NCBI GenBank assembly: GCA_950295325.1
Contig: OX485808.1
Span: forward strand, 29,222,527-29,286,526
Direction of reading: 5' to 3'
Origin: Polytrichum commune
Lineage: Eukaryota > Streptophyta > Polytrichopsida > Polytrichales > Polytrichaceae
DNA: 64,000 bases
Shown in pieces: positions 1,201 through 61,965 of this stretch. Position 1 is the stretch's first letter. Each line of letters opens with the position of its first letter. A program made the position numbers and the translations under genes. Below the pieces are notes generated by a model that did not search any database, was not told the DNA's origin, and saw only the letters and a program-made list of their open reading frames with translations.

Positions 1201-1203
1201 GAT

Positions 1204-2871: not shown

Positions 2872-3125
2872 GTATCAATCCTAACTATATATGGAATAGT
2901 TTAGATAATAGTTTACATGAAATTTGGAATGGGCTCAAAATATAATCAATTTATCTCGTCAAATATTGGACCCAAATGCAATTTTGTAATCTTATTAAGA
3001 GTAGTGTATTTGTCTAAGTGAGATAATCAGAATACTTTGATGGCATTCATAGAAATCATACTCTTTTGCATTTATTGTAACCCATTTTTGAAACCAATAT
3101 CTAATATCGAATTTTGGATCTATAG

Positions 3126-4247: not shown

Positions 4248-4459
4248 GTAAATGAATATTCATCACATTTGTTGAGTTTCATTATCATAAAACTATCGGT
4301 TTTAATGAAATTTAATTTGCACTAATAGGATTTGTTGAGGAGAAGAATGTGGGAAGTAAATCTATTTGATTTGCAGTGTTTTAATCTACTCATAGAGTAT
4401 GACAAATGCACGCACTTAAAGGATTGCCATAACAATGTTTTGTATCGTGGTTGATGCAG

Positions 4460-30106: not shown

Positions 30107-30366
30107 GTACCAATCCTAACTATGTATGGAATAATTTAGAGAATAGTTTACATCAAGTTTCGAATGGGCTCAAAATATAATCAATTTATCTCCTCTAATA
30201 TTGGATCCAATATTAAAATTTGAAATCTTCTTAAAAGTAGTGTATTTATCGAAATGAGATAATCAAGATGCTTTGATGGCATTCAAAGTACCTTGATTAT
30301 ACCCTTTTGCATTTATTGTAACTTAGGTTTCAAACCAATATCTAATATCGAATTTTGTTCTTATAG

Positions 30367-31200
30367 GGTTTTCAGTTTCTTGCACCATCGTCATGGAGAA
30401 CCTCAATACTCCCATCACAAGTGCGGTCCACACATTCATTACCGTTACTCCCGATTCATTTTGTCAACATTGACAAAAAAATGGCAAAGGTGTTATTTCA
30501 ACTAAATTCCAATCATATTATGGGCATCGTCGGGATGGGTGGAAGTGGAAAGACCACTTTGACAAAGGCCATTCTTCATCGTGTGCATCAAGACTTTGAA
30601 GCAACAAGCTTTGTGGCAAACATGAGAGACTCCAAAAATGTTTTGGATATACAAAGACAATTGTTGAAGGATCTCAACTACGCGAGCTCCATATCGACCA
30701 TAGAAGAGGGGTTCAAGTGTGTACAAAACATATTTGAGAAGAAGAAGGTCTTTGTTGTCTTTGATGATGTTGCCTCTGAAGAACAACTCCATGGGCTAGT
30801 TTCGTCTACGTGGTTGTTTGCTAACGGTAGCAAGATCATTGCCACAAGTCGAAACTGGCAAGACTTAAGAACAACTTGTGTTTCACACACCGGAAAGATG
30901 GACATGGAGTTATTGGACGAAGATGAAGCAAAGGAGCTATTCTACAAGCATGCATTTTCTCATCAACAACCTCAAAGGTTGCAATTGGAAGAAGTTGCGA
31001 GCAAAGTCATCGAAGCATGTGGTGGATTGCCTTTGAGCTTGGAAGTATTGGGAGGTTATTTGTGTGGAGTTGAAAGGCTTAGGGTATGGCAACAAGCATT
31101 GCAAAGATTATAGAAAGGAAAATGCCTTGGTGGTAGTTGGGATAACGAAAGGATATGGAGAACATTGAGGATAAGCTACGATAATTTGGATGAAGAGGAG
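30367..31200 (+). pseudogene. NLR copy 2, NBS exon 5' part with premature stop
   Basis: The acceptor CTTATAG at 30366 opens the exon. P-loop GMGGSGKTTLTKA, VFVVFDDV, GSKIIATSR and CGGLPLSLEVLGG are intact. At 31111-31113 a TAG stands where copy 1 has CAG (after ALQRL), ending the frame before the winged-helix region. At 31200 the exon is cut by the Gypsy LTR. The nonsense change is separate from the insertion, so this copy carries two independent lesions. Confidence 0.88.
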
Positions 31201-33035: not shown

Positions 33036-33922
33036 CGAAGCGGAAGGTAGTTACAAGACTTGGAGGCGACTAGGAGACTTGGAGGCAACTAGGAAAAATT
33101 GGAGACACAAACTTGAGAGAAGGGAAGGAGCACCCGAAACTCGGTAAGTATTCTCTCTTTGGGTTACATTTGAATTCATTGTATTTCAACTATTCCTTGG
33201 AATGAATTGCATTGTCAATTACGCAAATTCATTTTTGAGGAAGGAGCGCGGCGAAGGTACGTCCTCAACCTTTTTGGGGATTTGCTAAGAACTTAAAAGG
33301 AACCTATAACCGAGTAGCTCATTAAAACATTAGAGGGTAAATTCACCTTAGGACATTGAACTTTGACACTCACCTCGGGGTGAGTCTCAAAGTTTTGGGA
33401 GTTGTCATTTCATGCTCTAGATTAAATTAATATTTCACAAAGTTTATGGTGTTGTTACATTGAGTCACGATTGAGGGGAGTGCTAACTCACAGGGGGATG
33501 CGATTGCTCAAGGTATGTTTATTTCTTCAAAGTGAACTCATTAACTAATTAAGGAATGCCTTTTGTACTCGTGATTGTTGTTATCCGTTGTAGAGGGTAA
33601 TTCCCGAATTGTGGATGGTGTGAGAAGTTGAAGGGTGAAGCCTCGACTTTTAACATAATCTACTCGGAAGGTCACCCCCTCACAATCGGTATTGTGGTGA
33701 GTGTTAATTTGCGGGAAGGTGCGGAGGTGATGCTCCGACTTAATCAAAAAATTAACATGAACATGCCTATCCCCTATTGGGATTCTTTCACCTAAGTGGG
33801 CTTGCAGGTTCTTTTCCTCACCTCCTAAAAAAATTATAACCACACCAAGACAAGTGAAAATATTAAGAGGGGAATTGCTAGGATTATGTGTGGTCAAGTG
33901 AGGGTCGATCGATTCTTATGGA

Positions 33923-36900
33923 ATGCAAGGTAGGACTCGCTCACAAAAACCAAGTTTGATAGTAGGACTAGAGAAATCTACTCGAAAGAGGCGGTCCTCT
34001 AAAATCAGTGATAGATTAGAACAAGATAATGTTAGAATAGAGAGTTGTTTGAACGTCGAACCTAGGACTAGGTCAATTCTAGACACCTTAGAACTTGGAG
34101 CTCAACTTGAAGAGGAGATCACTCCCTCCAAATTGAGTGGTGAAACTTCTTCGGAAAATTACACACTTAGAGAAGAATTCCCGGTAGAAGTTGATAGGGG
34201 ATTGTTGAATAGTTCACCGGTCACCATGGCCGAGGAACGGGGGATGGATCCACCACCCATACCCCCAATTCCGCCCATACCTCCTATACCTCCAATAGAC
34301 CCATTGGTTAGGCCAAGAGGCCTACCAATTGTGGTTCCACAAAATTTAGCGGCGATGGATATGCCATCTCATCTCCCTAAATTTTATGGGACCAAGGATG
34401 AGGACCCCTCTCGGCACATGGAACGGTATATCGAACGGTTGGCTAGCTTCCTCATAACCGACCCGGGTTATTGGTTAGTGTGGTTTCCTACCACTCTAGA
34501 GGGGGAAGCCTATGAATGGTATCGGGATCATGCCGAGGGACATTTTAGGGGATGGGAACAATTACAAAGGGAGTTTCTTAACGAATTTAGGCCGGAAGTG
34601 GGTCAAAGTACCGCATTAAGGGCATTGTCGTCATTGAAGCAAGGAAGGGAGGAAGAAATTTCGGCTTACATTAGGAGGTTTGATTTAGTGTGCACTAGAT
34701 TCGTGGGTACCATGCTCAACGACGACACGCTAAAGCAATTTTTCATTCAAGGGTTTTTTAAGTCCGGAACTATTAGGGGTGTTCTAGAAAGGAATCCCTT
34801 GACCTTGGCGGATGCCAAGCGTGCGGCTAGAGATATTGAAAACTTGGATAAAGATCACGAAAGGCTATGGAGAAGGGAGGATGAATTGATCCCACAATTC
34901 ATCCCCATACGCCCTAGGGTGGTAGCGGTAGAACCCGCTAAGTATGAGAACCAAATTCCATATGCCATTGTGGACACCGGTCCCCGACCTTTAGCGGTTA
35001 GGGAACCGGCACCTCTTTTGGCACTACCGGCCCCTAGAACGGATCCACACTTGGAGGAGGTTGAGAGAAGACTAGGTGCTAGCCAACTAGGATTCCAAGA
35101 GGCTATGATAAAACAAATGCAAAGCCTCACGGATCAAATGTCATTAATGATCCGGAGTCAACAACCGGGGCCTCCACCCCCGGTTGAGTCGGGTAGGCAT
35201 TCTTCCGGATTATGGTGTGTCCAATGTGGCCAACCGGGCCACACGCGTCAATTTTGTAGAAGTGGACAAAACCGTGACCAAAGAGGAAACGGTAACCCAC
35301 CTCAACAAAATCAACGAGGTCAAGCGCCACCTCACTATGGAAATGGAAGCAATAGAGGACCACAACCTAGAGGGCAAGGTGGCCAAAATTTAGAGAAGAA
35401 GGAATTTCATCCCTTTTGTGGAAGGTGGCACGCTCAAGGACAATGTTGGTCCGAAGGTCAAGAGTTTAATTGTAGCAATTGTGGAGGAAGTCATCCCTCG
35501 GATACGTGTCGCCAACCGGACAAAATAATTAATGTCCCTTACCCGGTGGCTAATCCACAACAACAAGCAAGGGATAATATGCGAGGTGCTAGGCCACAAG
35601 GAGTACCGGCCAATGAACTTAGGCCACCTAACTTATACTATGACCATAGTAATGCTAGGCAAACTTTTCATCCACCGGCGGGCTTGCAAACTACAACCGG
35701 TTACATTCCAATACAAAATAGACAAGGAGTTCCACCTAATGGTAGTAACGGGAGACAAGCGCCTCCAACGGATCCGGGACCATCTAACTCCCAAGATGTT
35801 AGGTTCATGGATGGAGTGTTGGAGGCCACATGTGATGACATGCTTCCTCTCCCAACGAGAATTGGAGAGGAGCAAAGTCAATGGCCTCCTCACACCAATG
35901 CTATTACATATGAGTTAGTGAAGGGTAAGGGTGTGGTTGAAGAAGCACCTGCACTAGCGGTAACTACTAGGGCTAGGAGAGGGGATGCCTCGTTGGAGGT
36001 AGGAATAGGAGAGCAAGGAAATTACTCTTCGGATGAAGAGATTAATCTCTCCGAGTTGCATAGGGTAGCTAGAAGAGCTACTAAGGATGTGGAGAGGGAA
36101 AATATAATTTTACAAGATAGGGAGAGGACTAATGCGGTACATGACTTGGATAATAGCGATGTGGGTGAATGGGAAGGACCGGGGGTTCCCGTAGACGAAT
36201 TCGACGTAGTGGGTAATTCTAAGGTGGAAAGATCTACCGGGTACGACTTGTGGGCGGACCTTAGTACACTCAAGGCGGATATTACTTTCGGCCAACTATT
36301 GGAAATTTCACCCACGGCAAGGAAAACATTAAAGGAGGGAATGCCGGTACACAAGAGGATGAGGAAGGTGAAAGCTAAAATAGCCGCTAGGATCCAATCA
36401 CAAGGTGGAAGAGACGTGAAAGCTATAGAAATAGAAGTTGTTATAGTAGATAAGGTGGTTCCTAATGTGCTAGTCGACGGAGGGAGTAGTCTAAATATAC
36501 TACCGGAGGATACTATGAAAAAATTGGGACTTGGACTCACGGGGCCTTCACCTTTGGTCATAAATATGGCAAATCAAAGTTCGACTACGCCTTTGGGGAT
36601 GATCAAGGATTGTAGAATGACTACGGGAGGTGAGGAGTACTTGGTCACCTTCCATGTCATTAAAATGCACTCCAACAAGGACACCTTCCCCATTTTGCTA
36701 GGTAGGCCTTGGTTGCGGATGGCGAATGCTATGGTCAATTGGGGTGGACCTAAACCATCCATCACTTATGGTCCGGAGGGTAATAGGGTCATAGTGTCCA
36801 TTGGTTCATTAGAAGGATGGATGAAGAAGGAGATGTATTTGCCATTGGAGAAGGAAATTGATGACTTAAACGAGAATGAGATTGGCAAGGCATTGGTGGG

Positions 36901-39900
36901 AGTCGTCCATCCCGAAGGTCAAAGGGTTGTTATAGATTCGGGCTCGGGAAGTCTAGGTCCTAATTTTTACAATTATGGGGATAATGGGGATTATGCCCAA
37001 TGGCTAAGGGAGTACCCCGAGTCCGAGGTTGATGTAATGGTTACATTTCACCAAGTAGGCTTAGGGAGTGAATTTCCTAGTGTTAGTTTAGGAGAGGGCT
37101 CATTCTTGGAGCCATGTGAGGTGCTCACCGAGGAAGAGTGGATTAGCGGTGGGTTAACACCTTGGGTAGATGACGTGGAAGAGGGTGAGGTTAGTTTAAT
37201 TCATGTAGATGGGACTCAAGAGGAGGATGTGATTATTGAGTCATCGAAATTGGAGGAGCCTTTACATTTCAAGACCACGTCTACGGGGATAGTTGTAGGT
37301 CAAGATGTGAAAGATTACCCCAATGTGCCTTCCGATTGGTATCGGAACAAAGAGGAACAAGCACATGTGTCGGAAGCGGATTGGCGGTACGTGGATGTGA
37401 AATTAAAGAATGGAAAAACCCGACAAATGAAGATGGGCTCCAAATTGGGGGAGAAAGAGGTTAGGGAGTATAGCAATTTGGTGGATGAGTTTAGTGATAC
37501 TTTTGCATGGTCCTACGATGAGCTTAAGGGAATTCCTAGGGAAATGGTAGAGCACCGGATTCCTTTAATTCCGGGGGCGAGGCCAATTAGACAAAAGGAG
37601 AGGAGGATGAATCCTCAATTGCAATTGTTGGTGAAAGCGGAATTGGAAAGGTTATTGAAGGCCGGGTTTATCAAGCCGGTGGAAATCACGGATTGGGTTT
37701 CTCCTATGGTCTTAGTAAAGAAAAAAAATGGGAAATTAAGGGTTTGTGTCGACTATAGGAAATTGAATTCGTGCACACAAAAGGATCACTTCCCCTTACC
37801 TTTTATCACCTTGTTGCTTGAGGAGGTTGGAGGTCATTCGCGATATACCTTTATGGATGGGTATGCGGGTTATAATCAAATTTCCATAGCCCTCCAAAAT
37901 ATCCATAAAACGGCTTTTACTACACCTTGGGGTACTTTTGTGTGGGTAGTGATGCCATTTGGGTTATGTAATGCCCCGGCTACTTTCCAACGATTAGTAA
38001 TGTATATCTTCACCGACTTGTTGTTCAAATCCATGACCGTCTTTGTGGACGATTTTAGCACACAAAGTAATGTGGATGATCACCTACATTGTGTTAGGGA
38101 GGCATTGGTTAGGTGTAGGAAGATGAGGTTAGCATTGAACCCGGATAAGACATTTTTGGGAGTGAATAAGGGAGTGTTGTTGGGTTATGTTGTTAGTGAG
38201 AAAGGTAGAGAACCCGATCCGGATAAGATTGCGGCCATAAGCGACTTGGCAACTCCAACCAATTCCAAGGGGATCTCTAAGTTGTTAGGACATGTGGGAT
38301 GGTACCGGGAACTTATTCCTAATTTTTCAAAGATAGCGGTGCCCATTACCCATTTGCTCAAAAAGGATGTCAAATTCGAGTGGACGGATGCTTGTCAAAA
38401 AGCCTTTGAGGAATTGCGGGATAGGTTGAGCACCTATCCGGTGTTGATACCACCCAATTGGGGTAAACCTTTTCACGTCTATTGTGATGCTAGTAATGTG
38501 GCAATAGGGAGTGCGCTTTGTCAAGCAACGGGAGAAAAAGAGAAGGATCAACCTATAGCTTATGCGAGTAAGCAATTGACCCCCGCCGAAAGAAACTACT
38601 CTACAACGGAGAGGGAGTGCCTAGCCATGGTGTTTTCCGTTAAAAAGTTTAGGCATTACCTCATGTGCAACCCGGTTGTATTTTTTGTTGACCACATGGC
38701 TATCAAGTATCTAATTAACAAGGCGGAGTTAAGTGGTAGGTTAGCTAGGTGGGTTTTGTTATTAGAAGAATTCGACTACACGGTGGAATATAAACCGGGT
38801 CGTGTGCATTTACAAGCGGACCACTTGTCTAGGTTGTCGGAGGAGATAGGAAAAAATCCGGTAAATGATATGTTAGTAGATGATAGCCTCTTTGTGGTCA
38901 CTTCTACACCGGAGTGGTATGCGGGCATAGTGGAATTTCTAACAACCCACAAGTTGCCCAAAGAGTGGACAAAAGAAGAGAGAAGGAAGGTGAGGGTAAA
39001 TAGTAGGCAATTTGTTGTAGTGGGCCATAGGTTGTTTAGAAGGGGGTCCGATGGTATTTTACGACGATGCGTGTCAAAAACGGAGGTTGAAGCGATTTTA
39101 ATCGCTTGCCACGATAGCGCTTGCGGCGGTCACTTCTCGGGTCAACTCACCGGGCAAAAAATACTTAGAGCGGGCTACTTTTGGCCTACACTATTTAAGG
39201 ACGCCCATGACTATGTAAGGAAATGCGACGCTTGCCAACGGTATGCCCGAAACGACCTTAGAATGGAGATGCCTTTACATGTATCATTACCCTTAATTCC
39301 TTTCGAAAAATGGGGCATCGACTATGTGGGTGAGGTCCATCCCCAATCTTCAAAAGGAATGAAATATATTGTGGTGGCAACCGAATACCTCACCAAGTGG
39401 GCGGAAGCCAAAGCGGTGAAGACCGACACGGCGGAACACGCGGCAACATTTATGTACGAAAACATAATTTCGCGGTTCGGGGTGCCGAAGATCCTAGTAA
39501 GCGATAGGGGTACTCACTTTTTGAATGACTTGATTCGAGAGATGACAGAGAAATTTAAAATTGATCACCGGAAGACTACTCCCTACCACCCACAAACCAA
39601 TGGACAAACGGAAAGGGTTAACGGAATTTTGGTGAGTATACTACGCAAGACGGTTATAGACTCGAAGCGGGATTGGGATACGAAACTAACGGCGGCACTT
39701 TGGGCATACCGTACAACCTATAAGGTAACTACGCGTGCTACACCATTTTCCTTAGTCTATGGTCTTGAAGCGACACTACCAATCGAATATGAAGTCGAGT
39801 CACTTAGGGTGGCCGTGAGTGCGAGACTTACCGAAAGTCAATCCTTACGAAATCGACTAACCGATTTGGAAGCACTTGACGAAGGGAGGAGAATGGCGGC

Positions 39901-40162
39901 TCAACATATTGAGGCAATCCAAAGAAGGAGAAAGATTACTTTCGACAAACGACATAAGAGAAGGGCCCTAACACCGGGAATGATGGTCATGATTCAAGAC
40001 GCACGAAAGCTTGAATTTCCGGCGAAATTCAATGCGGTATGGTTAGGACCTTACCTTGTCTATGAGGTCTTTCCTAATAATTCAATTCAATTGGAAACGT
40101 TGAATGGTGAGCTCTTTCCTACCCGTACATCTGGAAGTAGATGTAAGGAGTACCGAGCTTGA
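33923..40162 (+). CDS. Gypsy Gag-Pol polyprotein (2079 aa, intact)
   Basis: A single unbroken frame carries all replication functions. Gag (about residues 150-300) includes a WYRDHAEGHFRGW-type core, followed by zinc knuckles CVQCGQPGHTRQFC (about 432) and CSNCGGSHPSDTC (about 517). The aspartic protease has VDGGSSLN (about 850). The reverse transcriptase shows VCVDYRKLN (about 1274) and FVDDF in place of YVDD (about 1373). RNase H begins near YCDAS (about 1520). Integrase has the zinc-binding region ending CDACQ (about 1768), Asp in WGIDYVGEV (about 1797), Asp in SDRGTHF (about 1860) and Glu in TNGQTERVNG (about 1895). No stop or frameshift separates gag from pol. The frame looks competent, so this element may still be mobile. 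Start ATG at 33923. Confidence 0.95.
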   Translation: MQGRTRSQKPSLIVGLEKSTRKRRSSKISDRLEQDNVRIESCLNVEPRTRSILDTLELGAQLEEEITPSKLSGETSSENYTLREEFPVEVDRGLLNSSPVTMAEERGMDPPPIPPIPPIPPIPPIDPLVRPRGLPIVVPQNLAAMDMPSHLPKFYGTKDEDPSRHMERYIERLASFLITDPGYWLVWFPTTLEGEAYEWYRDHAEGHFRGWEQLQREFLNEFRPEVGQSTALRALSSLKQGREEEISAYIRRFDLVCTRFVGTMLNDDTLKQFFIQGFFKSGTIRGVLERNPLTLADAKRAARDIENLDKDHERLWRREDELIPQFIPIRPRVVAVEPAKYENQIPYAIVDTGPRPLAVREPAPLLALPAPRTDPHLEEVERRLGASQLGFQEAMIKQMQSLTDQMSLMIRSQQPGPPPPVESGRHSSGLWCVQCGQPGHTRQFCRSGQNRDQRGNGNPPQQNQRGQAPPHYGNGSNRGPQPRGQGGQNLEKKEFHPFCGRWHAQGQCWSEGQEFNCSNCGGSHPSDTCRQPDKIINVPYPVANPQQQARDNMRGARPQGVPANELRPPNLYYDHSNARQTFHPPAGLQTTTGYIPIQNRQGVPPNGSNGRQAPPTDPGPSNSQDVRFMDGVLEATCDDMLPLPTRIGEEQSQWPPHTNAITYELVKGKGVVEEAPALAVTTRARRGDASLEVGIGEQGNYSSDEEINLSELHRVARRATKDVERENIILQDRERTNAVHDLDNSDVGEWEGPGVPVDEFDVVGNSKVERSTGYDLWADLSTLKADITFGQLLEISPTARKTLKEGMPVHKRMRKVKAKIAARIQSQGGRDVKAIEIEVVIVDKVVPNVLVDGGSSLNILPEDTMKKLGLGLTGPSPLVINMANQSSTTPLGMIKDCRMTTGGEEYLVTFHVIKMHSNKDTFPILLGRPWLRMANAMVNWGGPKPSITYGPEGNRVIVSIGSLEGWMKKEMYLPLEKEIDDLNENEIGKALVGVVHPEGQRVVIDSGSGSLGPNFYNYGDNGDYAQWLREYPESEVDVMVTFHQVGLGSEFPSVSLGEGSFLEPCEVLTEEEWISGGLTPWVDDVEEGEVSLIHVDGTQEEDVIIESSKLEEPLHFKTTSTGIVVGQDVKDYPNVPSDWYRNKEEQAHVSEADWRYVDVKLKNGKTRQMKMGSKLGEKEVREYSNLVDEFSDTFAWSYDELKGIPREMVEHRIPLIPGARPIRQKERRMNPQLQLLVKAELERLLKAGFIKPVEITDWVSPMVLVKKKNGKLRVCVDYRKLNSCTQKDHFPLPFITLLLEEVGGHSRYTFMDGYAGYNQISIALQNIHKTAFTTPWGTFVWVVMPFGLCNAPATFQRLVMYIFTDLLFKSMTVFVDDFSTQSNVDDHLHCVREALVRCRKMRLALNPDKTFLGVNKGVLLGYVVSEKGREPDPDKIAAISDLATPTNSKGISKLLGHVGWYRELIPNFSKIAVPITHLLKKDVKFEWTDACQKAFEELRDRLSTYPVLIPPNWGKPFHVYCDASNVAIGSALCQATGEKEKDQPIAYASKQLTPAERNYSTTERECLAMVFSVKKFRHYLMCNPVVFFVDHMAIKYLINKAELSGRLARWVLLLEEFDYTVEYKPGRVHLQADHLSRLSEEIGKNPVNDMLVDDSLFVVTSTPEWYAGIVEFLTTHKLPKEWTKEERRKVRVNSRQFVVVGHRLFRRGSDGILRRCVSKTEVEAILIACHDSACGGHFSGQLTGQKILRAGYFWPTLFKDAHDYVRKCDACQRYARNDLRMEMPLHVSLPLIPFEKWGIDYVGEVHPQSSKGMKYIVVATEYLTKWAEAKAVKTDTAEHAATFMYENIISRFGVPKILVSDRGTHFLNDLIREMTEKFKIDHRKTTPYHPQTNGQTERVNGILVSILRKTVIDSKRDWDTKLTAALWAYRTTYKVTTRATPFSLVYGLEATLPIEYEVESLRVAVSARLTESQSLRNRLTDLEALDEGRRMAAQHIEAIQRRRKITFDKRHKRRALTPGMMVMIQDARKLEFPAKFNAVWLGPYLVYEVFPNNSIQLETLNGELFPTRTSGSRCKEYRA

Positions 40163-42308: not shown

Positions 42309-42523
42309 GTAAATGAATATTCATCACATTTGTTGAGTTTCATTATCATAAAACTATCGGTTTTAATGAAATTTAATTTGCACTTATAGGTTTCATTGTG
42401 GATAAGAATGTGAGGGAAGTAAATCTATTTGATTTGAAGTGTCTTTAATGTATTCATAGAGTATGACAAATGCACGCACTTAATGGATTGCCATAACAAT
42501 GTTTTGTATCGTGATTGATGCAG

Positions 42524-43852
42524 ATGATACACAATGTGGAGGGTCTTCATACGGCTGGATCTCGTTGTAATTACAGTATGATACCAACAATGGATATGGC
42601 CAACATAAGGCTTTTGCATATGAAGGATTGTGAAAACTTGGATTGTTTGTATAAAACAATGAAGAATGCGAGTAAATTGAGGTGGATGCGGATAAGAACG
42701 TGTTTCGGAGAAACTAGAGGTGAAAGAATCCAAGAGCTGCAACCATCATTTTTCATTCCATTCAAACAATTGTGTGTGTTGGAGATGGAGTATTTAGAGC
42801 ATTTGCAACACCTTCCATGTGAAATTGGTACCTTCGAGATGTTAAAATATCTTACCTTGATTTGTTGTTCGAGATTGGAATTCATACCAGAGACATTGGG
42901 CAACTTGGCTTTCTTGGTTGAATTGAACCTGAGTGGTTGCTCGAGCTTGAAGGTATTACCAAAGACATTTGGCAACTTGGCTTCCTTGGTTAAATTGAAC
43001 ATGACTTGGTGCTCGAGGTTGAAGGAATTACCGGAGACATTGGGCAACTTGACTTCATTGGTTGTATTGATATTGAATTGTTGCTCGAGCTTGGAGGAAT
43101 TACCAGAGACATTGGGCAATTTGACTTCATTGGTTAAATTGGACATGTTTAGGTGCTCGAGCTTGAAGGAATTACCGGAGACATTGGGCAATTTGACTTC
43201 ATTGGTTAAATTGGACATGACTAATTGCTCGACCTTGAAGGAATTACCGGACACATTGGGCAACTTGACTTCATTGGTTGAATTGGACATGGATCATTGC
43301 TCGAACGTGAAGGAATTACCGGACACATTGGGCAACTTGATTTCATTGGTGAAATTGGACATGAGAAATTGTTGGTGCTTGAATAAATTACCGGAGTCAT
43401 TGGGCAACTTGACTTCATTGGTTGAATTATACATGACTCATTCCTGGAGCTTGAAGGAGTTACCAGAGACATTGGGCAACTTGACTTCATTGGTTGAATT
43501 GGACATGAGTTGTTGCTCGAGGTTGAAGGAATTACCGGACACATTGGGCAACTTGACTTCATTGGTTAAATTCAATTTGTTGATGTGCTCAAGTTTGAAG
43601 GAATTACCAGAGACATTGGGTAACTTGACTTCATTGGTTCAATTGAACATGAAGGGTTGCTCGAGCTTGAAGGAATTACCAGAGACATTGGGCAACTTGA
43701 CTTCATTGGTTAAATTGAACATGACTGGTTGCTCGAGCTTGAAGGAATTACCGGACACATTGGGCAACTTGACTTCATTGGTTATATTGAATTTGTGTAA
43801 TTGCTCGAGCTTGAAGGAATTACCAGAGACATTGAGACATTGGGCAATTTGA
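42524..43852 (+). pseudogene. NLR copy 2, LRR exon (13 near-identical repeats)
   Basis: Starts after acceptor GATGCAG at 42523 in phase 0. The leader resembles copy 1 but has a small insertion (TCFGETRGERI). I count 13 full 24-residue units of the LPETLGNLTSLVKLDM type plus a broken fourteenth, against 21 in copy 1. The frame stops at 43852 after a partial repeat (GAGACATTGAGACATTGGGC) throws it out of phase. The repeats are as uniform as in copy 1, so this array was still being homogenised until recently. Confidence 0.85.
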
Positions 43853-49759: not shown

Positions 49760-50150
49760 ATAATACATAGATTATGTAATGTAGGTGACACTAAGTATGA
49801 TACAATTATTTACAAATGTATATGGGCATTTTGTGGTCACTCTTCTTAATTGGACATGTATATTTGAGTGGTATATGTGCAAGTCTTGAAGTTAGGTATG
49901 GACACCAAAATGCATGTCTTGAAAAGATAGAGGACATCGTGTTGAGAATTTATTAACCATGCTAAATGGAACAAATCTCATAATTGGGGATGCCTAAATG
50001 GTAATTGTTTTAATTTATGGAATGTTCATTTTGATAGTGAATAGAATATTCACATGAGCTCCTCAAATTATGAGGAAAGTGGGCACGGGCACAAATTGGA
50101 TGTGCTAATCATCTCGCATTAATTACATGTTTGGCATCCTAGTATCTTAG
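49760..50150. other. Spacer between the unknown ORF and the LINE
   Basis: No gene. Contains the fourth member of the dispersed ~95-bp repeat (50041-50135: GAATATTCACATGAG ... GGGCACGGGCACAAATTGGA ... ATTAATTACATGT). It ends with ATCTTAG directly before the target duplication. Confidence 0.55.
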
Positions 50151-50189
50151 TACAAGTGGGTGATCACAACCCCTAACCTTATCAAACTA

Positions 50190-50660
50190 TTTATCTCAAC
50201 CCTTGAACAAAACCCCTTAATACTATATACCAAAACAACTATATACCAAACCGAATATCAAACCAAATACCAAAATCCAACCAAACAACAACACCAAATC
50301 AAATACCAAACCAAATACCTACACCTTTTCAAAGACCAATACCAAATAAAAAACCAAATCAAACACCAAAACCAAACCAAATACCAAATCAAATACCAAA
50401 CCAAATACCAATACCAAATCAAATACCTACTCCAAATCAAACACAAAATTAAGTACCAACACCAAAACAAAAACCAAAACATATACCAAACTAAATACCA
50501 AACCTAATACCAACATCTAAACCAATACCCAACCAGATATCAATACAACCACCATCACCCACAACTATACCAACATCAAAACCACCACCACCACCAAAAC
50601 CATCACCAAAACCAATATAAAAAACAACACCAAACCCAAAACCCAAAACTAACACCAAAA
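50190..50660 (+). repeat. A/C-rich degenerate repeat at the 5' end of the LINE
   Basis: Variants of ACCAAATACCAAATCAAAT and ACCAAAACCAAAT recur with irregular spacing and shift to CCACCACCACCAAAACC near 50580. The small ORFs here on both strands reflect the repeat, not genes. Confidence 0.85.
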
Positions 50661-53483
50661 CTCCCTGTGCCATACAACTACCATCTAATATCACCTAACT
50701 CACTTTTCACAAGCAAATACACACTCATACAAAATCACCAATTGACCGACTCAAAAGTTAAACAATATCACGAACACTACTTCATCAACAACAAAGCTAT
50801 AATAAAATGCTACAAACTAATACTGTAGATAGGTTTTTAGATTGGGTTCCAATTAAGAAAACCACACAGGGAAGACTAAATGAGTGTCAGGTGTTACATC
50901 TAGGGATCACCATTGAGTTAATTGATAGATTACAAGAGAATTAAGATGTATTTAGAACAACAAACACATGGAAAAAGACTTCTAGAGTGAGCTTTAGGAT
51001 TGATTCAATTAAGGTTGAGGGTCACTCACAGCAGTACATGCAATTGATCAGTCACTCCCTCACAACCCACTCTCATCAGTAACATCACTCTTATAATGTG
51101 TTTTGCAATTCAGGGAGTCACAGCTCAGCCATAGACATTTGAGTACGCCATAGTCTCAGAAACCCAAGGTAAAAAACTCCTTGAGGTGACCATAGTCTCT
51201 CCAAATAAGTAACCAAGGACTATAGGCCATACCACAGTTAGTAAGGATATCATGTTCACACTTGACTCCTCCTATGGTTAAGTGATTGATTTAATTAGAT
51301 AAAGACCACAGAAATGAATTATTTCCTTAGTCAATTTTAGACTTAACACTTTCACAGTGGAATTTAATGCATTAAAATAAATTATGGAAATTAACAAAAG
51401 TCTAACGTGTGACAGTAACCTAGTGACCGAGTCTAGAACCGAACCGAACAGAACCGGGACCGTAAGAGTCTAATCGCAGGACCATAGTCTACACGGCACG
51501 GCCATAGTCTAGTCACCAGTAACAGTCACAAGTATCAAGTCACGTCTGAAAGGTAGGGCCATAGTCTGAGTAACTAGTAACCAGTAACAGTAGCCAATAA
51601 CCAGTTAGCGTCAAGTTCTCGACAAAGGAGCGGGCTACTTCTCCTTATAAGCTTGCCCTTCTCCTCTCACCCAAACCATATGGGTTAATGCTCCACGCTT
51701 CTCGCGCAGCTACTTCCTCACGATCATACGCGTCGGCTCCGTCAGCAGACTCCACTTGCACGCAGCATCTTCTTCTTCTTCGCTAGGCGCATCGTTCCTT
51801 TCACATGCAATCTTCTCCTTGTGAAATTGAACTGATACTTCGTCTCCACGTTTCTACCAGTGCACTCTTAGAGATTTCATGGAACTAATTCCGAAGTTCC
51901 ACTAGCTCACATCGAGAACTATCCTCATTAGTAGAAAAAGAGGACCATCACAGTCACTTTCTTGCTTCTCAAACTGCAATCCACCTTCATCGGGGAGAAT
52001 CACTCTTCCGGTGGCATTTGATCGTTCTCCGATAAGGTGCTTTATTCATAATTTGATGAACGAACCAGGGTAACAATCTGCCACACTAGATGCTCTCATT
52101 TAATTCCTCACAAGATTCTAAAGTATTGTAAACTAACTATTCGAACACATTGTCTCCGGGATAGACACACTTAATTCCCTCGCAGGTAGTTTGCTGGTAC
52201 GTCGTCTCACCCGGCCACTGTGCAGAGTAAATTCTCTCAACTGGGGAATGTAATTTCTAATAACCAAAGTTTATCACTTCGACCCCTACCCCCACTTTCT
52301 GATTGTCACCTATGCCAATTTCAAGGCAATCTCCGAATCTTTGTCCGAGAGCAAGAGGTACCAAAGAGAGAACTTCACGCACTGAATTGATATAAGACTA
52401 TTGCCTACACAAATTGACATTCCCAACAGTTTTTACATATCTCCTTTCACAGGGATATATACTATTCTTGCACTTACTTCGTATGAGTTACATGGGTGCT
52501 GGTTTGGTAAAGGTTACTCCACTCTCAGGAGTTCAATTTCGAATCCTACACTCATATCCAGATTCGATCAAATTAGGACTTTCTACACATCAGGTTTCTT
52601 CCGAAGAATGATGTGAGATCACTTCCATATGTGACTGATTCTTTTATCTCCTCCCGAGAGGATCACTATAACTTCCCTCGCTGTACTCACCTAAGTGAAT
52701 GATGCAGTTACTCACGATGAAATTTCACATTCCACTTGTAAGTTATTGTCATGAATAAGAATATTGAAATGGAGACACTACCACTGTTTCACACAGTGTC
52801 AATCCTAACAAGCACTTACAGCAGTAAGTCACAATTGGGAATTTAAAGCTGCAGTAATTCATACCAGGATGTTTCTCCCCAAGAATTCCCAATTCGATCC
52901 AGAGTTTCACACTCGATCTCTGTAACTGATATACTTGCAGAAATTAAGTTCTCACACCAAATAATTTACTCCCTTCACAAGAGTAAGATATCCCAGATTC
53001 TCCCTAGGTTCTTCCCGAACCAAGAAGAATACACTTTGACTTACTTGATTCAACACAAGCATCAACACCACAAGTTCAATTCTCACACACACAATTGATA
53101 AAAGAGCTTCACGCTATTGTATTATGTAGAGTTTAAAATATACAATCAAAAAGGGCTTCACACCTAGGCTAGAATCGCTCAAAAAACTGCCAGACAAGGG
53201 AGACTCTCTTCTCGAGAGGTACTGCCTTTCTCCTCTCCCTCTTCTCCTCTATATCCCCTAAATTAACTACCTCGTCTCTTGGAATCAGATTTCATAAGGC
53301 TCTTCGACTTGGTCACATGTCTATTGCCCTACCCAAAAGACTCTTCCTCTTGGGATCTGTTTCATATGAACTAAATGTTTCACCCTTAGCTCATTTCGGA
53401 TAATTGGTCACTAATGACTTACTTTAACGTCCATTTCACATTCTGAGTGCCAATATGAATTCACATCCTATCAAAATTCTAAA
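50661..53483 (+). promoter_or_regulatory. LINE 5' leader without a long ORF
   Basis: No ORF of note and no separate ORF1 protein is seen. The word CCATAGTCT recurs several times (51168-51560), and AGTCACCAGTAACAG (about 51510-51525) is similar to the reverse complement of AACTGGTGAC-containing DNA in the 3' part (about 61150-61180). Being inside the target duplication, this stretch travelled with the element and should hold its internal promoter, though none can be pinpointed. Confidence 0.5.
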
Positions 53484-55147
53484 ATGACTATTCTGAGACC
53501 AAAAATTGTACCACAAATACTAAATACCATACAAAAGATACATATAAATACAACATTCAATAATACTCCAACTAAAACAAAAACCAAAACACAATCACTT
53601 ACTAAACACGTCAAAAGTAATAACCAAACAACCAGTAATAAACCTACAAAATACCACCAGCAAGTGCCTTATACACCTGGGGAAGGCGGATTGCCCACAC
53701 TTACAAAGAATAAAACGGCCTCGGCCTCCCGGCCTCGCCACAAAACTAAAAACAAATACCAATTCACAAACACCTGGACACCCAACACAATAACAAATCA
53801 CGAACCTAAAAGCAATACAAGTACACACTTTTCAACTAAAAAACTAGAAAGCACAATACCCGCCTTACCTAACATATTTACTACAACTAAGTTCATACTC
53901 AATAAATATCAAAAAATACATAAGAAAAAACCAAAATTACTTAAAATCTACGGATACCTTTTCATCAATAAATTAATATTATTACAATGTGGAGATATAG
54001 AACCTAACCCCGGCCCAATGCCTGATATCCTGCACACACACCCCGCTACACACAAAAAGAGAGCCAAAACATATTTTATCCCAAACACGATAAAACTACA
54101 ACCTGAGTACCAACACATAGCAAACATGTTCGCTCCAATACTAAAACGGAATCACCCCTTAAATCACCAAACAACCATCATGTACCCACACCTCCACCAA
54201 TACATTCTAACACAAAGTTATTCCTATTCAACTCATATACTATATGCTTTAGTCATTACGATAAACCCCTCAATAGACACATGCAACAACATATTAGCCC
54301 AACCCCGCATTTACCACTTTAACGACATATGGACCAATACACTAATCATTAGACTAGCCAACCTTAACAACCTTCCCAAGCGGCACATTCTTACACAACA
54401 CCCATACACAATATTTGTCGAAAATAACCAAGATATAATACACCCCAAAGACTCTATACATACCGAGTTATATCAATATATCCACAACCAAGACACTCCA
54501 CCTACACTAACCACACTCCAAAGGAAATTCCCCTTTCTCCCTGTAAAACTGATTACCGAGTCACTCCGGTGCTTAGAAAACATAGATGAATACTCGCACC
54601 CACCTCCACTCCCAAACATCCCCACACCAGCCCCAAAAACAATTACAAATACTAACCACGAAACAAATATAATAACATGGAATGCCTCATCACTTAACAC
54701 AGCCTTACCAAACCTACAAAGCTTAATAAACCTCTCCTTTAACAACACAGCGATTATACATATCCAAGAAACCAAACTCACAGCAACTAAATCCACAAAA
54801 TACATTCAGAACCAATTCCCTGAATACAAGCTCATTTTTAACAACACACACGCACTTACAAGATGCATACAACAAAGAATGCCTTACACCCCCGGTAGAG
54901 GTGGTCTTCTCACACTTATTCATAACAAATACGCATTTCCTGGAAATGTTACCAAGATACCCACACCAGCAAATATCTCCCCTTATCTACAAATAATAAA
55001 AATACACAACCATCTACTCCTGCCATGGCTAATCATACATATGTATATGCCCACATACGTAGATGACACCCACCTCATTCCCTACCTCAAAACCACAATT
55101 ACCAACCAAATAACTGCGCACCCTAACCACACGCACATTTTAATAAA
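53484..55147 (+). pseudogene. LINE polyprotein part 1: basic N-terminus, 2A motif, EEP endonuclease
   Basis: ATG at 53484. Residues 1-165 are Lys/Thr/Asn-rich and lack known domains. Residues 165-178 read LILLQCGDIEPNPG then P; this fits the 2A consensus D(V/I)ExNPGP, at which ribosomes skip a bond and release the upstream segment. From about residue 393 an EEP (apurinic-type) nuclease begins: ITWNASSL, catalytic Glu in IHIQETKL, then GRGGLLTLIHNK and YMPTYVDD. Near 55145, just at the ILI(G)D site, the frame shifts by one base, and the unshifted frame runs into a stop at 55238. The EEP nicks target DNA to prime reverse transcription. Confidence 0.85.
53982..54017 (+). promoter_or_regulatory. 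2A-type ribosome-skipping site in the LINE ORF
   Basis: Codons for LLQCGDIEPNPGP. All residues of the core DxExNPGP are kept. Skipping would occur between the last Gly and Pro (54014/54015), releasing a 177-residue N-terminal product. The preceding stretch YGYLFINKLILLQ is hydrophobic, as in 2A sequences of animal CR1/L2-like elements. Confidence 0.75.
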
Positions 55148-56644
55148 GATATTGTACTCACCGGAAGACAAAATAACAATAATCACACGCCACCACAAGA
55201 GGACGACATACAATGGAAAAACTTCACTACAACCCTAAACCTAGAATATATTCCAACAAACACTAACTTTTCAAGACAAGGAGGTTATAATTACACGTCA
55301 ACCAGCCTTATAGACGGTTTCTATATCAACTCACCAGATAACAATAGATTCGCCTCTACAACTAATACAAACATAAACCTAAACTCAGACCACTATCCAG
55401 TCACCTTACACATACCTCAAAACCTACTTATAGCTAGACCACCTCCCCCCGCAAATACTACACCAACTAGAATACTAAATCCAATCCCGTCGGAGAACTT
55501 AGAGAAATTTAATATCGAATTTTTTGAAGCAAATACCACGCAAGTAAACGAATTAACCATCCTACTAGAAAACCATAACAACCTCACCCCGGACCAATGG
55601 CAGGAAGCTTGTACAATATTAGACGACATTGTAGAAAAAATCTCAGTAACCATTGAAAAAACCTGCAAAGCAACACCAATACCAACCCTTACAAACAGAA
55701 CAGCTCAGCAAGGTGGTTTCTTACCACGGAAACTATCCAAAGAATGGAAACGACACCTCGACACATACCATCTTATTAGAAAAACGATATACATCGCAAG
55801 AAACAACCCACACTGGCAAACTCATCCCATTTTAAATGAAATCCGTAACCACCGACATGTGCAAATTCCACATCCACCTACAACAAGCACTCCCCCAAAT
55901 GAATGGATTGACACCATAGCCGCTATCGCAAAAACCTCCAATAAAGAAGCCAGGAAAATCACCACAAAATACACCAAACACTGTATTCTTAAAGCCGTAT
56001 CAAATTACCGCCAAATGTATGAAAAATGTCCCAAAAAAATAAATAGGAAAGTCTTTAAGCACTCCGAAACCTCACCCCTCGACTCCATCACGGATAGACA
56101 AAATAACATATTAACCAATCTTGAAGATATTGCAAAAGAAATTCACATTCAACAATCCATCAGTAATCGTCCAACAGTACCCACATGCTACTATCATAAC
56201 ATTCACCCACCACACTGCACATGTGGCGTTAGGCAATATCCATGGCATGACTTAGAAGGATTCACGATTGAACAGCGGGGAGAACCCCATACCCCCCTGC
56301 ACACATACTTTGATCAAGAAACATACGACTTCTGCCTCAAAAACCTAGGAAATAATAAAGCCCCAGGACCAGACAAAATTCCTAATTCAATCCTAAAGAA
56401 TATGCCTCCACATTTTCACAAGCTACTCTTTCTATTCTTTAAACACTGCTACCAACAAAAACAAATCCCTGCATCCTGGAAAACTAGTCTAACGGTTTTA
56501 CTATACAAAAAAGGTGATCCATCACTACTTACTAACCATAGACCCATTGTACTAGCTAACACCATATACAAACTATACACAAGCACATTAACATCTATTC
56601 TCTCAGCTTATGGTGAAAGATACCAAATACTGCATGATAGCTAA
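55148..56644 (+). pseudogene. LINE polyprotein part 2: end of EEP domain and start of reverse transcriptase
   Basis: In the shifted frame (about 55148 on) the EEP domain finishes with its two last signatures, SLIDGFYIN and NSDHYPVTL, so the nuclease is complete apart from the frameshift. After a linker with cysteines (HCTCGVRQ) the RT fingers appear: NNKAPGPDKIPNSIL (about 56350) and YKKGDPSLLTNHRPIVLAN (about 56500). A TAA at 56642-56644 interrupts the frame between HDS and EGFRAERG. It is one substitution from a sense codon, and the same frame continues at once. Confidence 0.85.
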
Positions 56645-59600
56645 GAAGGATTCAGAGCAGAAAGAGGAACATCCAGACAACTTCAACTCCTCATTGCAGC
56701 ATTAGAAGACGCAAGATTTACGAACCAAGATATATATATGCTTTACATTGATTTCAAAAACGCTTTTGATTTTATTGATCATGCAAGACTCTTAGCCATA
56801 ATGAAAGACCTTGGATACCCAATGGATGTAATAAACCTCATCGGTAATATATACTCACAATCCACTACTATATATCTTGGAGAATACTTCGGCAAAACCC
56901 TACCCATCCCCATTCAAAGAGGTACAATACAAAGAGACACTCTCAGCCCTTACTTATTCTTAATATTCTTAGAACCCCTCCTTACATGGTTACAACAAGG
57001 TGACAATGGATATACCTTTGGAACTTCCAAAATTAAAATCACATCTGCAGCATATGCCGATGATCTAGCAGCGATTGCCAATAAATTAAAATCATTACAA
57101 ATACAACTAAACAAATTAGATAAATTCTGCGAATGGGCGGGAATGGACCTTGGAATACCCAAGTGTGCAGAGACTGGATGCCCTAATAAATCTAAAATGA
57201 ACCCCATAACATTCAAAGCCATGATTCAATCCACTAATATAAACTACAGAAACCAACCATTACCAGTCTTAGATCAACACGAACCATACACCTACTTGGG
57301 AATCAATCTCGCACCATCTCTTAAATGGAAAGCACAAATTAATACCACTACAGCTAAAGTTATTAAACAATGCCAAGCCCTTGTCGCATGCCCAGCCAAC
57401 ATGAAACAAAAAATCAACATGGCAGATACAGTCATACGTGCCGGTATTGCATACAGCTTTTACGCAGTACCATACTCTATTCCGGCTATCAAAAAACTAG
57501 ATAAGAAGATTATAGCACTTCATAAAACAATATGCGGATTACCAAAAATCACATCTAATATCGCTACACAACTCCCACACAATCTATTCGGAATCAAAGC
57601 ATTCTCTCTACATAATGCCTACTTGCGGTGTATCGGAGAACAACTACAAAATGCCCTCAATGACAAAGGTAGACTTGGCAAAATTTATCATGGCCTAACA
57701 CAATTTATACTTGCAAAATTTGGAGGTTCCAAAGAAATAACCCGCATTAAATACCATCATTGTGTTAGATCACCTATCACTAGAACGTTATTCCTACTTA
57801 AACATGAAGCAGGAGTTCACCTAAAAAGTACAATAAATTGTTTCTTATTAAACCCATCCACACTTGAAACTGCATGGTTGAAAGAAGCTCAAAACCTACA
57901 AGGCCTAAACCCCAACACTTCACTTAAATTATTACAAAAACTTCTATCGTACAATATAATAAAATTAGAACAAATAATCATGCCCAATGGCATAACCTTA
58001 ATGAACCCAGACGACTTTAAAATATACCACTCCAATCCTACAAAACTCATCAAAAGTGCATTAAACATCGCGAATCAACTATTTTGCCATCCTTCCTGCC
58101 ACCAAGAATACTACCTACCATGCCCACATCATTACTCCCCACGAACCTTAAAGAATGATTACACAATAATAAATCATACCATCCTCCCTCAACACCCAAC
58201 CCCCCCTATACACCCCCCTATACACCCCCCAATCCCCCATCTACCCCCTCCTCCCAACAATATGCTTAACAACCCCCGTCAATTTCCTATACACACAATA
58301 CTAGATCACAAACAAAAACAACTCATAGATTCTAACAGGATTAAAAGAAATGACACATCATACCTTTGCCAATGGACTACAACAAATAATTCCAAATACA
58401 ACAAATGGCGCACCCAAAGAGAGTTATTTCCCTACTGTGATGCCTATACTAGTTGCCACAACACCGAACTACTTACCCAATATTATACGAAAAAGCAACA
58501 CAAATACTTCACAAATATCGTCAATGCATACTTCTCCACGGAACAACTAAGAGATACCAGATACGTTACCCCTGCTACAATAATCCCATTGGCACAAATC
58601 TCCATTAATGAATGCAACCCAGAGAGTGACATCGAAACAAATACTAACACTATCCAAATACAATTTGACGTCGCCCACATATATGAAGACAACGGCCGGC
58701 ACCTCATTACCATCCCAAAAACTAGATTATTGTGGCTATGGAAACAATACCATCAAGCTAAAGATACCCCACATAATCTAGAACCACCTACCCAATCATT
58801 TGAAACTGAAATCGTGTGGCTATACCAGAGGTATAAATACCGCATTCCAAAAAATGACCCACTTAAACGCGCCCAATATACTATACCAACTCCACTACTA
58901 GATTTCCTAATAATGACATTTAATATCAACCATTCATACTTCTCATCCCCAGTTACCTGTCCCACACAATTCACCCAATTCCACTCACCATTCTCTAGGG
59001 ATAGAATATTTGGATCCCTAGGGAAAGCATTTGACCAAAAATGGAAGGGAATTGGCTACGCCCACCCCCATAACGCAACAGACGTACAACAAGCCATCCA
59101 TTGGGCCCGCATTGCGGCCAAAAACGACCCAAATACAATCACTATACTTATCTCAAAAGATATGGATTTGTACCATAACTTTAACCCATACACTGGGCCA
59201 TTCTTGGATACATACATCATTGCCCACTTTGCAGCAGACACCATTACATACGAAGAACCCACAATTCCCCCCGAACTCAATACCACGAGAAAAGAATTAT
59301 CAACACTACGAATATTCTGTATCCACCACCAAAACAATCACATCGGTACCTACGAACAAATGAATCAACTAGTCAACATAGCAAATAACCTCCAAATATT
59401 ACAAATTCACACACAAATTGCACCTCCCACCCCCTTAAATACCGCCGTTAACCCTAGCAAAAAATGGGCTAAATCCAACTATCCAAACACCCCCAATAAC
59501 AATAACATACTTATTCCACAACTCCCTAATTACCAAACCAACTTACCATTAAAATTCCATCCACAATTCAGCTACTATACAGACGGTTCTTTTATGAAAC

Positions 59601-61033
59601 CCAAAGAAATTAACCCTGGAGTATGGAGAAGAGAAAGGGCTGGCTATGGAATCTATAGCCCAAAGGGCCTCAACATCTCCAAAAGACTACATGGACTCCA
59701 AAACATATTACGAGCAGAAATGATAGCCATACATGATACACTAACAATCATTAATACACTATATCCAAATGAACCCGCCTACATATTTACCGACAGTCTC
59801 AATGTATTATACCTACTCAACACACAAATTAAACACCCCACACTTCACAATAGCCACCCTGATCAAATCACCCTTGCCACCATGGTACAACTACTTCAAA
59901 ACCGTACACAACCAACCACACTATACAAAGTCAGAGCACACGTCAACATTAACGGCAACGAACAAGCAGACAAATTGGCAAAAGAAGGGCTAGAACTAGA
60001 TCACAGAATTGCTATTCACCCATTTGAACATGCCCATGCCACCCCATACTACTACCAAAAGGACGTTTGGGCCTCAATGATGGACGTTCCTGATAAAGGC
60101 CCTGTTAGATTCCTAGAAAAACAAATTAGTAAATACGACAGGGAAAACAACTTGGAAAACATGGCCACACAAACCCCCAACACTTACAAATGGACAGGAA
60201 ATGCAGATATAGACAAAGAACTTTCTAATGAATCCTGGGAAAACCCGGAAATCACGGATAAACAAAAATCATGCCTCATCAAATTCCGAACAGGAACCTA
60301 CATGGGCAATGCTCGAAAACAATTGTTCTTCGGTAGACAATCATATCCCTCTATCACATGCCCCATTTGTAACTCATACGAACCGGACACGTGGTTACAT
60401 GTACTACTTACGTGTAAACAACAACATATACATTCACTTCACGTCAAAAGACACAACAAAGCTGTATGGGAAATTAGGAAATTACTGATCTCATCTGAAA
60501 AATCTCGATGTTATATTCTCATGAACGCTGGCACCTTCAATAATACATCCCAGGAAAACACCGTTCCCAATTGGCTACTCCCTTGCACATGCGGTACACA
60601 AAGATGTTATTGTAACTCCAAATTTAGACCTGACATCCTTTGTGTTAGAGGATTACCGTACCAAAATGACCCCCCCACAACCATGGACCCCAACCTCACC
60701 ATACAATTCATCGAATTCACATACTGTAATGATAGATTCTCTCCAGAAACACTCGAAGCAAAAAATAACAAATATAAACCATTAATCGATAGTATTGCTG
60801 CTAGAGGATGGAAAGTTGACCCCCTTATTATAATCACCGCAGGCGCTAGAGCCACTACACACACCCCTTCAATGAAATCACTTGAAAATAAATTTAAAAT
60901 ACCTATGCCTATCATTAAAAATACTTCTAAAAACATCAATACTATCGCTATTAAATATGCCATGTCTATCCTCCTACACAAAAGAAGAATAGAAAACCAC
61001 CAACCCCTACCCCAAACACTAGACCCCCCATAG
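56645..61033 (+). pseudogene. LINE polyprotein part 3: RT palm, RNase H, CCHC, restriction-like endonuclease
   Basis: Continues in the same frame after the TAA. RT palm motifs are YIDFKNAFDFIDH (Asp), RGTIQRDTLSP (the usual QGD is QRD) and AAYADDLAAIA (catalytic YADD), then TYLGINL. A proline-rich linker (about 58195-58255) follows. RNase H has Asp in YYTDGS, Glu in LRAEMIA, Asp in FTDSLNVL and Asp in GNEQADKLA. A CCHC finger follows, CPIC ... WLHVLLTC (about 60360). The C-terminus has CTCGTQRCYC, then RPDIL (about 60627), FIEFTYC (about 60708), NKYKPLIDS (about 60770) and IITAGARA (about 60833). These match the PD ... E/D ... KY ... GARG pattern of R2-type restriction-like endonucleases. The ORF ends at 61033. 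Confidence 0.85.
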
Positions 61034-61321
61034 ACAAAGCCATAAAACTTTGGTAACTAAGCCACTCTACTCCATCCACCAACAAATGCACTAGAGACTT
61101 GGGGACCCAAACCATACTAACAACCCCCCCCTAAAAACTAACCAGTTGGTTTCTGTTACTAGTAACTGGTGACTATAGTGTCTACTCTCGAAAGGGAGGA
61201 GTAGATCTTTACCTCCATACCTTTGTCCTGTGGGCATCGGATTGGGGGAGGATCGAACAGACACTTCATTCACGTCGGTCTCCTCCGGAGACCGAAGTTT
61301 TTCTTCTTTTTTTCTTCTTCT
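61034..61321 (+). other. LINE 3' part and T/C tail
   Basis: Non-coding. CTCGAAAGGGAGGAGTAGATC and TCTCCTCCGGAGACCGAAG could form hairpins near the end (TCTCCTCCGGAGA is nearly self-complementary). The tail is a TTC-type microsatellite ending at 61321. Such a structured 3' end may be recognised by the element's own reverse transcriptase. Confidence 0.6.
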
Positions 61322-61456
61322 TACAAGTGGGTGAAAAAAGAGAATGTCCGTTTAAGACGTGATTACCTTACAATGTTGGGGGAAGTTGGAAGTGCCCACA
61401 TTGCTTTGAAGTGTAAATTCATGTATGAGTACGTAAAAGAAGTGACCCAACCTTAG
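61322..61456 (+). pseudogene. Possible host exon interrupted at its edge by the LINE
   Basis: Starting at the right-hand target duplication the DNA reads openly from TACAAGTGGGTG (YKWVKKENVRLRRDYL ...) to TAG at 61456, 44 codons. At the left-hand copy the same 13 bases follow ATCTTAG, which could be a splice acceptor. The element may thus have inserted at the start of a last exon. The peptide resembles nothing I know, so this remains a suggestion. Confidence 0.3.
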
Positions 61457-61473
61457 CCATCCCTTGCCACTTA

Positions 61474-61965
61474 GGGCCACTTCACACACGAGACTGAGAG
61501 CTTGTAACCCTTACACTTTGAGCACTCTCATTGGTGGAAAAGGCGGTCCAAGTTCGATTCACATTACGTTTGAAGGACCAACAGAGTAAGTGAATGCAAG
61601 ATGGATGTAAAGTCTACATTGATTCCTACATGGCATCAAATGGGTCACGTTTTATGGTCACTTGGACTACTTTCAAAAACCACATCTCGGAGGTAGGCGT
61701 AACACAAAATTGGGAGACCATCGCATTCCAAACGCTCACAACCGTTGGTTTATTCTATTTTATCATGTGTGAGGACCCGCATGAATAGAAATTCAATGAA
61801 ATAGCATTTGGTTGAGGGCCCGGTACATATGACTTCACACTACACTTGAGGATCCGTGACCGCACTACATGATTTTGGAGGTGTCTTGGGACGGCCTTTA
61901 GACACTTTCTTGTGGGCTCTCACAATTTCACGGTCATGGCTCTTGGCTCATGTGTGAAGTGGCCC
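61474..61965. mobile_element. PIF/Harbinger-type MITE, 492 bp
   Basis: Left end GGGCCACTTCACACACGAG, right end CTCATGTGTGAAGTGGCCC. It is flanked by TTA on both sides (61471-61473, 61966-61968), the standard Harbinger target. It has no transposase. Its right half lies within the inverted duplication and is copied at 48491-48751. Confidence 0.88.

Follow-up and report, generated by a model that had tools for sequence, protein, structure and literature searches.

A decayed and probably Dualen/RandI-type LINE with two endonucleases in the land plant Polytrichum commune

Among long interspersed nuclear elements (LINEs), the name Dualen refers to the group that carries both an APE-type endonuclease and a restriction-like endonuclease (RLE), and this group has been viewed as bridging the RLE type and the APE type (PMC4640811, PMC3636483). 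Dualen is present in relatives of Chlamydomonas (PMC8226300), the table of a 2015 survey lists Dualen/RandI from green algae only (PMC4438587), and the tails of RandI are tabulated as a short 3' repeat (PMC3747384). In a 2025 genome paper, sequences annotated as LINE/Dualen are reported from cryptophytes (PMC12747079). This article concerns a LINE located in a stretch of 64,000 nucleotides from Polytrichum commune (assembly GCA_950295325.1, contig OX485808.1, positions 29,222,527 to 29,286,526 of the forward strand), which is referred to as the window and whose own numbering is used throughout. A preliminary description of the window, made from the letters alone, had proposed a full-length plant LINE with two different endonucleases, an architecture held to be established only in green algae; the latter statement agrees with the 2015 table but not with the cryptophyte annotation. 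In the open-access papers searched, among which subscription papers are not included, no report of Dualen/RandI in a land plant was found, nor was any published land-plant description found of a combination of two nucleases, a reverse transcriptase (RT), a PCIF1-like domain and a 2A motif.

The locus is a clearly bounded, decayed LINE copy in a land-plant genome. It occupies 50164..61321 on the plus strand, on which all features of the element described below also lie, and measures 11,158 bp with a nested 2.7-kb insertion counted in. These bounds, as previously proposed, proved right, with the 13-bp sequence TACAAGTGGGTGA standing on both sides as an unstranded target-site duplication (50151..50163 at the 5' end and 61322..61334 at the 3' end, identical at 13/13 positions); among random pairs of 40-base flanks drawn from the window, at least 13 shared bases were seen in 1 of 5000. 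The top strand of the element is rich in A and C, and the flanking 2-kb blocks differ in this respect. The 3' untranslated region (61034..61321) ends in a T/C-rich tail of TTC repeats and not in poly(A).

Within these bounds, one element encodes an N-terminal protein, a 2A-like motif, an EEP endonuclease, an RT, a PCIF1/CAPAM-like domain, an RNase H, a CCHC zinc finger and an R2-type RLE. Since EEP and RLE both lie on the window's element, it is neither RLE-only in the manner of R2 nor EEP-only in the manner of plant L1 or I elements, and we consider it quite probable that the locus represents a Dualen/RandI-type LINE with two endonucleases, present in a land plant as a dead copy. That a single bounded element of a land plant holds two different endonucleases is supported by its sequence, by the predicted folds and by relatives, and the motifs previously named (those of EEP, YADD, RNase H, CCHC and RPD...FIEF...KYKPL...GARA) were all located. 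The relatives comprise 133 proteins fetched from ENA and JGI records, the first protein search having returned six, and all 133 were placed on the element by tblastn. As in Dualen/RandI, EEP, RLE, RT and RNase H are combined in one element whose 3' end is a short repeat rather than poly(A); unlike Dualen/RandI, with algal Dualens compared by description only, this element has a land-plant host, a PCIF1-like pseudo-methyltransferase and a 2A motif, and no protease was found in it.

The EEP/APE-type endonuclease extends over 54660..55430, with ITWN at 54672, QETK at 54765, SLIDG at 55304 and SDHYPV at 55385. The pieces of this domain in the window, where the frame shifts within the domain, gave no Pfam EEP match, while relatives matched above the cut-off, with Exo_endo_phos_2 at 6.1e-8 in P0005 and Exo_endo_phos at 9.8e-7 in P0034. 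Against PDB sequences, the EEP profile returned only weak matches to exodeoxyribonuclease III, the best at 5.3e-4.

The R2-type RLE lies at 60392..61006, with RPDIL at 60626, FIEF at 60707 (its E at 60713), KYKPL at 60770 (beginning with the K in question) and GARA at 60842. The CCHC finger, CPIC...H...C, occupies 60359..60415, with CPICN at 60359. The PD, E and K residues are invariant among the sequences that cover them (5/5 and 4/4), down to 38% identity, and the AlphaFold model of the domain is R2-like by Foldseek. The assignment as an R2-type RLE rests on predicted fold and motif, since the RLE profile searched against PDB sequences gave only RNase H matches. A second cysteine cluster, CxC..CxC (60584..60613), follows the CCHC finger and comes just ahead of the RLE core; it is kept in four of five aligned sequences, with CSY in its first half in P0127.

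The RT (56336..57310) contains YADD at 57053-57064 and matches Pfam RVT_1 at 3.5e-17 in the window's own open reading frame (ORF). Downstream of it, the RNase H (59570..59992) matches Pfam RNase_H at 8.8e-13, likewise in the window's own ORF, with YYTDG at 59573, RAEM at 59711, FTDSLN at 59786 and ADKLA at 59966. In single-sequence comparison, the RT of P0003 matched the R2 structure 9nl2 at 2.2e-30 and R2Tg at 3.7e-30, and more weakly R2Bm (3.8e-19) and human L1 (2.2e-18 and weaker); with the family RT profile, R2 chains alone passed 1e-5. The element thus resembles R2 in that R2 proteins are its best-scoring solved RTs and in its CCHC and RLE C-terminus and fold. R2 targets ribosomal DNA and is, to our knowledge, without EEP, RNase H or 2A. 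The present element differs in having all three, and an Rfam search of 50000-61500 gave zero matches, rRNA included.

In an unrooted RT tree of ten rows (the family, P0006, R2 and human L1, with no Dualen, Utopia, NeSL or I references), the family formed one group (100/99) beside P0006 (99/96) and apart from R2 (97/95); L1 and P0006 have long branches in this tree, and R2Bm has an odd make-up. By sequence, the family RT appears to be neither R2 nor human-L1-like and to be deeply separate from both, and membership in the Dualen/RandI clade is likely rather than proven, because few RT references were compared. P0006 (2161 residues) contains the 2A-like sequence GIEPNPGP and, by Pfam, EEP and RT; an RNase H is suggested by eye and by a weak BLAST match (E 0.30), with no Pfam match. 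P0006 was searched for an RLE and a PCIF1-like domain, and neither was detected. The P0006-type element, which supplies the nearest outside RT, therefore resembles the present one in its 2A-like motif, EEP and RT and differs from it in the RLE and PCIF1-like domain; it is possibly an RLE-less sister of the family. Of the checks proposed in the preliminary description, structure prediction of the C-terminus bore out the R2-like fold at low TM-scores, the profile search succeeded for RT and RNase H in the window and for EEP in relatives only, and the RT phylogeny, with its ten rows, separated the family from R2 and human L1 and placed it nearest to a protein with EEP and no detectable RLE.

Several results weigh against the dual-endonuclease interpretation. 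Among nine relatives scanned, the EEP match was above the cut-off in four, below it in two and absent in three, one of the absences being P0120, which spans the domain. The TM-scores of the RLE to R2 in Foldseek are low (0.45-0.54, query-normalised), the two AlphaFold models are modest (mean pLDDT 62.7 and 56.7), the RLE profile recovered no R2 chain from PDB sequences even at E 10, and the CCHC finger is partly lost in P0127. The TM-scores of the PCIF1-like domain to PCIF1 are also low (0.30-0.40, query-normalised). Among the relatives examined, none has every module in one frame, and no peptidase was detected in Pfam scans of the window's three ORFs or of 23 relatives. The narrow set of RT references and the position of P0006, with EEP but neither RLE nor PCIF1 domain detected, count in the same direction.

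The position of P0006 would suit an EEP-only LINE of the I or plant L1 type, in which one nuclease cuts and the C-terminal zinc/RLE-like block survives as a vestige that binds DNA or RNA, as would the failure of the RLE profile to reach an R2 chain by sequence. A vestige, however, would not need the PD...E...K residues whose conservation is described above, and the fold is R2-like. A vestigial RLE is therefore disfavored, and we regard it as unlikely.

The PCIF1/CAPAM-like methyltransferase fold (58688..59386) lies between RT and RNase H. It matches PF12237 at 4.2e-9 in the window, and this match was above the cut-off in seven of the nine sequences that span the domain. PF12237 has been described as a CAPAM-like methyltransferase family (PMC7641849), and on the basis of this source and of the fold search, the reading as a WW domain, which is Pfam's name for it, was rejected. 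PCIF1 was the best fold match in Foldseek; a helical part precedes the methyltransferase fold, as in PCIF1/CAPAM. Unlike PCIF1/CAPAM, the domain has no NPPF motif and is embedded in a retrotransposon polyprotein. At the NPPF position, located by hhalign, this copy has HPHN (59063-59074), and the motif is replaced in 9/9 sequences, by an HP-type sequence in eight and by IPPH in P0132. With a plain hidden Markov model of the domain, the match to zebrafish PCIF1 was confined to the helical part as far as FGSxG, and the human PCIF1 stretch was missed. Because the catalytic motif is lost, RNA binding is a likelier role for the domain than methylation, the bound RNA being perhaps the capped 5' end of the element's own transcript. 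An active methyltransferase with an altered motif, marking element RNA or target DNA, would accord with the fold match and with the conservation of the domain, but the replacement of NPPF in all nine sequences makes it quite improbable. An RNA-cap methyltransferase seems to have been taken up by a retroelement and to have lost its catalysis there, and no paper containing both PCIF1 and "non-LTR retrotransposon" was found among the open-access papers searched, with subscription papers outside this coverage. This domain, the 2A-like motif and the decay of the copy were absent from the preliminary description.

The linkage of the modules was followed through the relatives. EEP is joined to RT in one frame in P0005, RT is joined to the edge of the PCIF1 region in one frame in P0003 and in P0133 (from the third search), and P0002 begins at the end of RT, covers PCIF1, RNase H and CCHC and reaches the end of the RLE, all in a single frame. 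The records of P0026 and P0001 each give a contig of 13,377 bases; the two contigs are probably identical, in which case both nucleases would stand on one contig. Since the single frames of relatives overlap and between them link the modules, a chimera in which one LINE landed in another and supplied EEP and RLE from different elements was rejected as close to refuted, given also that the one nested insertion that this copy does hold lies 5' of the 2A motif and not between the nucleases. No related locus was confirmed in viral contigs or prokaryote genomes.

The StopGo/2A-like motif GDIEPNPGP (53991..54017) stands 5' of EEP after a hydrophobic stretch and fits the StopGo/2A core (D/G/C/N)(V/I)ExNPGP given in PMC12846837. 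When the window was aligned with 120 relatives, 68 of the rows carried letters at the motif, and the counts for GDIExNPGP were G 63, D 67, I 65, E 63, N 68, P 62, G 64 and P 66; these positions are 91-100% conserved, and the residue between E and N is free, as in 2A. The strict pattern occurs in 52 of the 133 fetched proteins, many of the others being fragments that end short of the motif. Ribosomes may skip a bond at GDIEPNPGP. 2A-like sequences are described in non-LTR retrotransposons, in L1Tc and APE-type cases (PMC4981915, PMC12846837). The present element shares a 2A-like sequence with L1Tc, sea-urchin and other APE-type LINEs, and differs from these in having an RLE besides. Artificial 2A sequences function in plants (PMC12846837, PMC4981915), whereas for plant viruses a 2026 survey found no evidence of natural StopGo use (PMC12846837); the motif described here is a candidate native plant StopGo motif.

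The N-terminal coding part is A/C-rich and of low complexity at 50164..50823, where residues 1-186 of P0013 align, and the remaining ORF1-like part ahead of the 2A motif lies at 53516..53990. The segment that precedes the 2A motif recurs in degraded form at 50694-50819, where the NPGP part is lost (P0022 residues 89-132, E 1.7e-6); this second copy is present in P0007 and P0013 too. Between 2A and EEP, a conserved region of about 210 residues (54018..54659) gave neither a Pfam match above the cut-off, in the window or in the relatives scanned, nor a peptidase match. The original Dualen report of 2005 is said to name a cysteine protease domain. In this element, none was found in the Pfam scans and the N-terminal alignment, in which only four window columns filled in at least 20 rows have C as the commonest residue.

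Working copies of the family would be translated from one frame, in which the ribosome would skip the last Gly-Pro bond of the 2A motif, so that an ORF1-like protein and a large enzyme would be released separately. In view of the family type and the target-site duplication, this enzyme would move by target-primed reverse transcription, with one endonuclease nicking the first strand to prime cDNA and its partner cutting the second strand, a role that falls more probably to the RLE, which is tethered downstream of RNase H and the zinc finger; RNase H would remove the template, and the 13-bp duplication is consistent with staggered cuts. The PCIF1-like domain would serve as the RNA binder proposed above. 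We infer this division of labor between the two nucleases and the pseudo-methyltransferase. With both catalytic sites conserved, a land-plant family of this kind offers a system for asking which nuclease makes which cut, and it includes a retroelement apparently holding a captured RNA-cap methyltransferase without catalysis. More tentatively, the family may belong to an old, hitherto undescribed LINE class of plants and their relatives, whose single frame would yield, through a natural StopGo peptide, an ORF1-like protein plus an enzyme of five modules (EEP, RT, a CAPAM domain now dead and turned cap reader, RNase H and RLE). Were this so, a native StopGo would be seen in a land-plant genome for the first time, as would a CAPAM domain in a LINE, and the class would represent a living intermediate whose first-strand and second-strand cuts are shared out between two nucleases.

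In its present state, this copy should not yield its full protein and looks dead, because it combines a nested insertion, a frameshift in EEP and in-frame stops. Open frames extend over 53418-55238 and then, in another frame, over 55127-61033, interrupted by a stop at 56642-56644 in the RT; a further in-frame stop lies at 50505-50507 in the N-terminal part. The frameshift, located near 55139-55148 by tblastn of relatives on the element, is crossed in one frame by several relatives, P0014, P0026 and P0031 among them. The region 53484-61033, whose translation had earlier been proposed for a profile search, does not form one open frame. The earlier term "full-length" goes too far for a copy so interrupted and broken; the 5' end may be nearly complete, since the initial Met of P0013 aligns by tblastn with 50178, 14 bases from the 5' junction.

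The nested insertion (50824..53515, unstranded) comprises 2,692 bp of long terminal repeat (LTR)-type, solo-LTR-like sequence foreign to the LINE; its ends are TG...CA, and the 5 bp AATAC are duplicated at 50819-50823 and 53516-53520. When its flanks are joined, the peptide has no stop and keeps the frame of the relatives, and P0007 aligns over the junction along residues 1 to 111 of the test peptide. As the insertion came later, the LINE proper is about 8.5 kb. The insertion resembles a very long solo LTR; no internal LTR pair was found within its 2,692 bp, so that it probably derives either from a long solo LTR or from an LTR element of the non-autonomous kind.

Elsewhere in the window, Pfam identified a kinase ORF (1.1e-42), NB-ARC (2.4e-35), leucine-rich repeats (LRRs; 3e-67) and PPR repeats (4.7e-75). 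These contents give good support for a land-plant host, and genes of the kinase-NB-ARC-LRR kind suggest that it is a non-seed plant. Because the element sits between plant genes of the kinase/NB-ARC/LRR type, algal contamination as its source is unlikely. Repeated kinase (with a weak RPW8 match)/NB-ARC/LRR ORFs at 1171-6382, 28403-31110 and 42515-43849 make up a duplicated cluster of disease-resistance genes; Pfam assigned the first unit, and the others were judged from the similarity of their starting sequence. At 33902-40159, a stop-free frame of 2086 residues with gag, protease-like, RT, RNase H and integrase parts represents the polyprotein of a Gypsy-type LTR retrotransposon.

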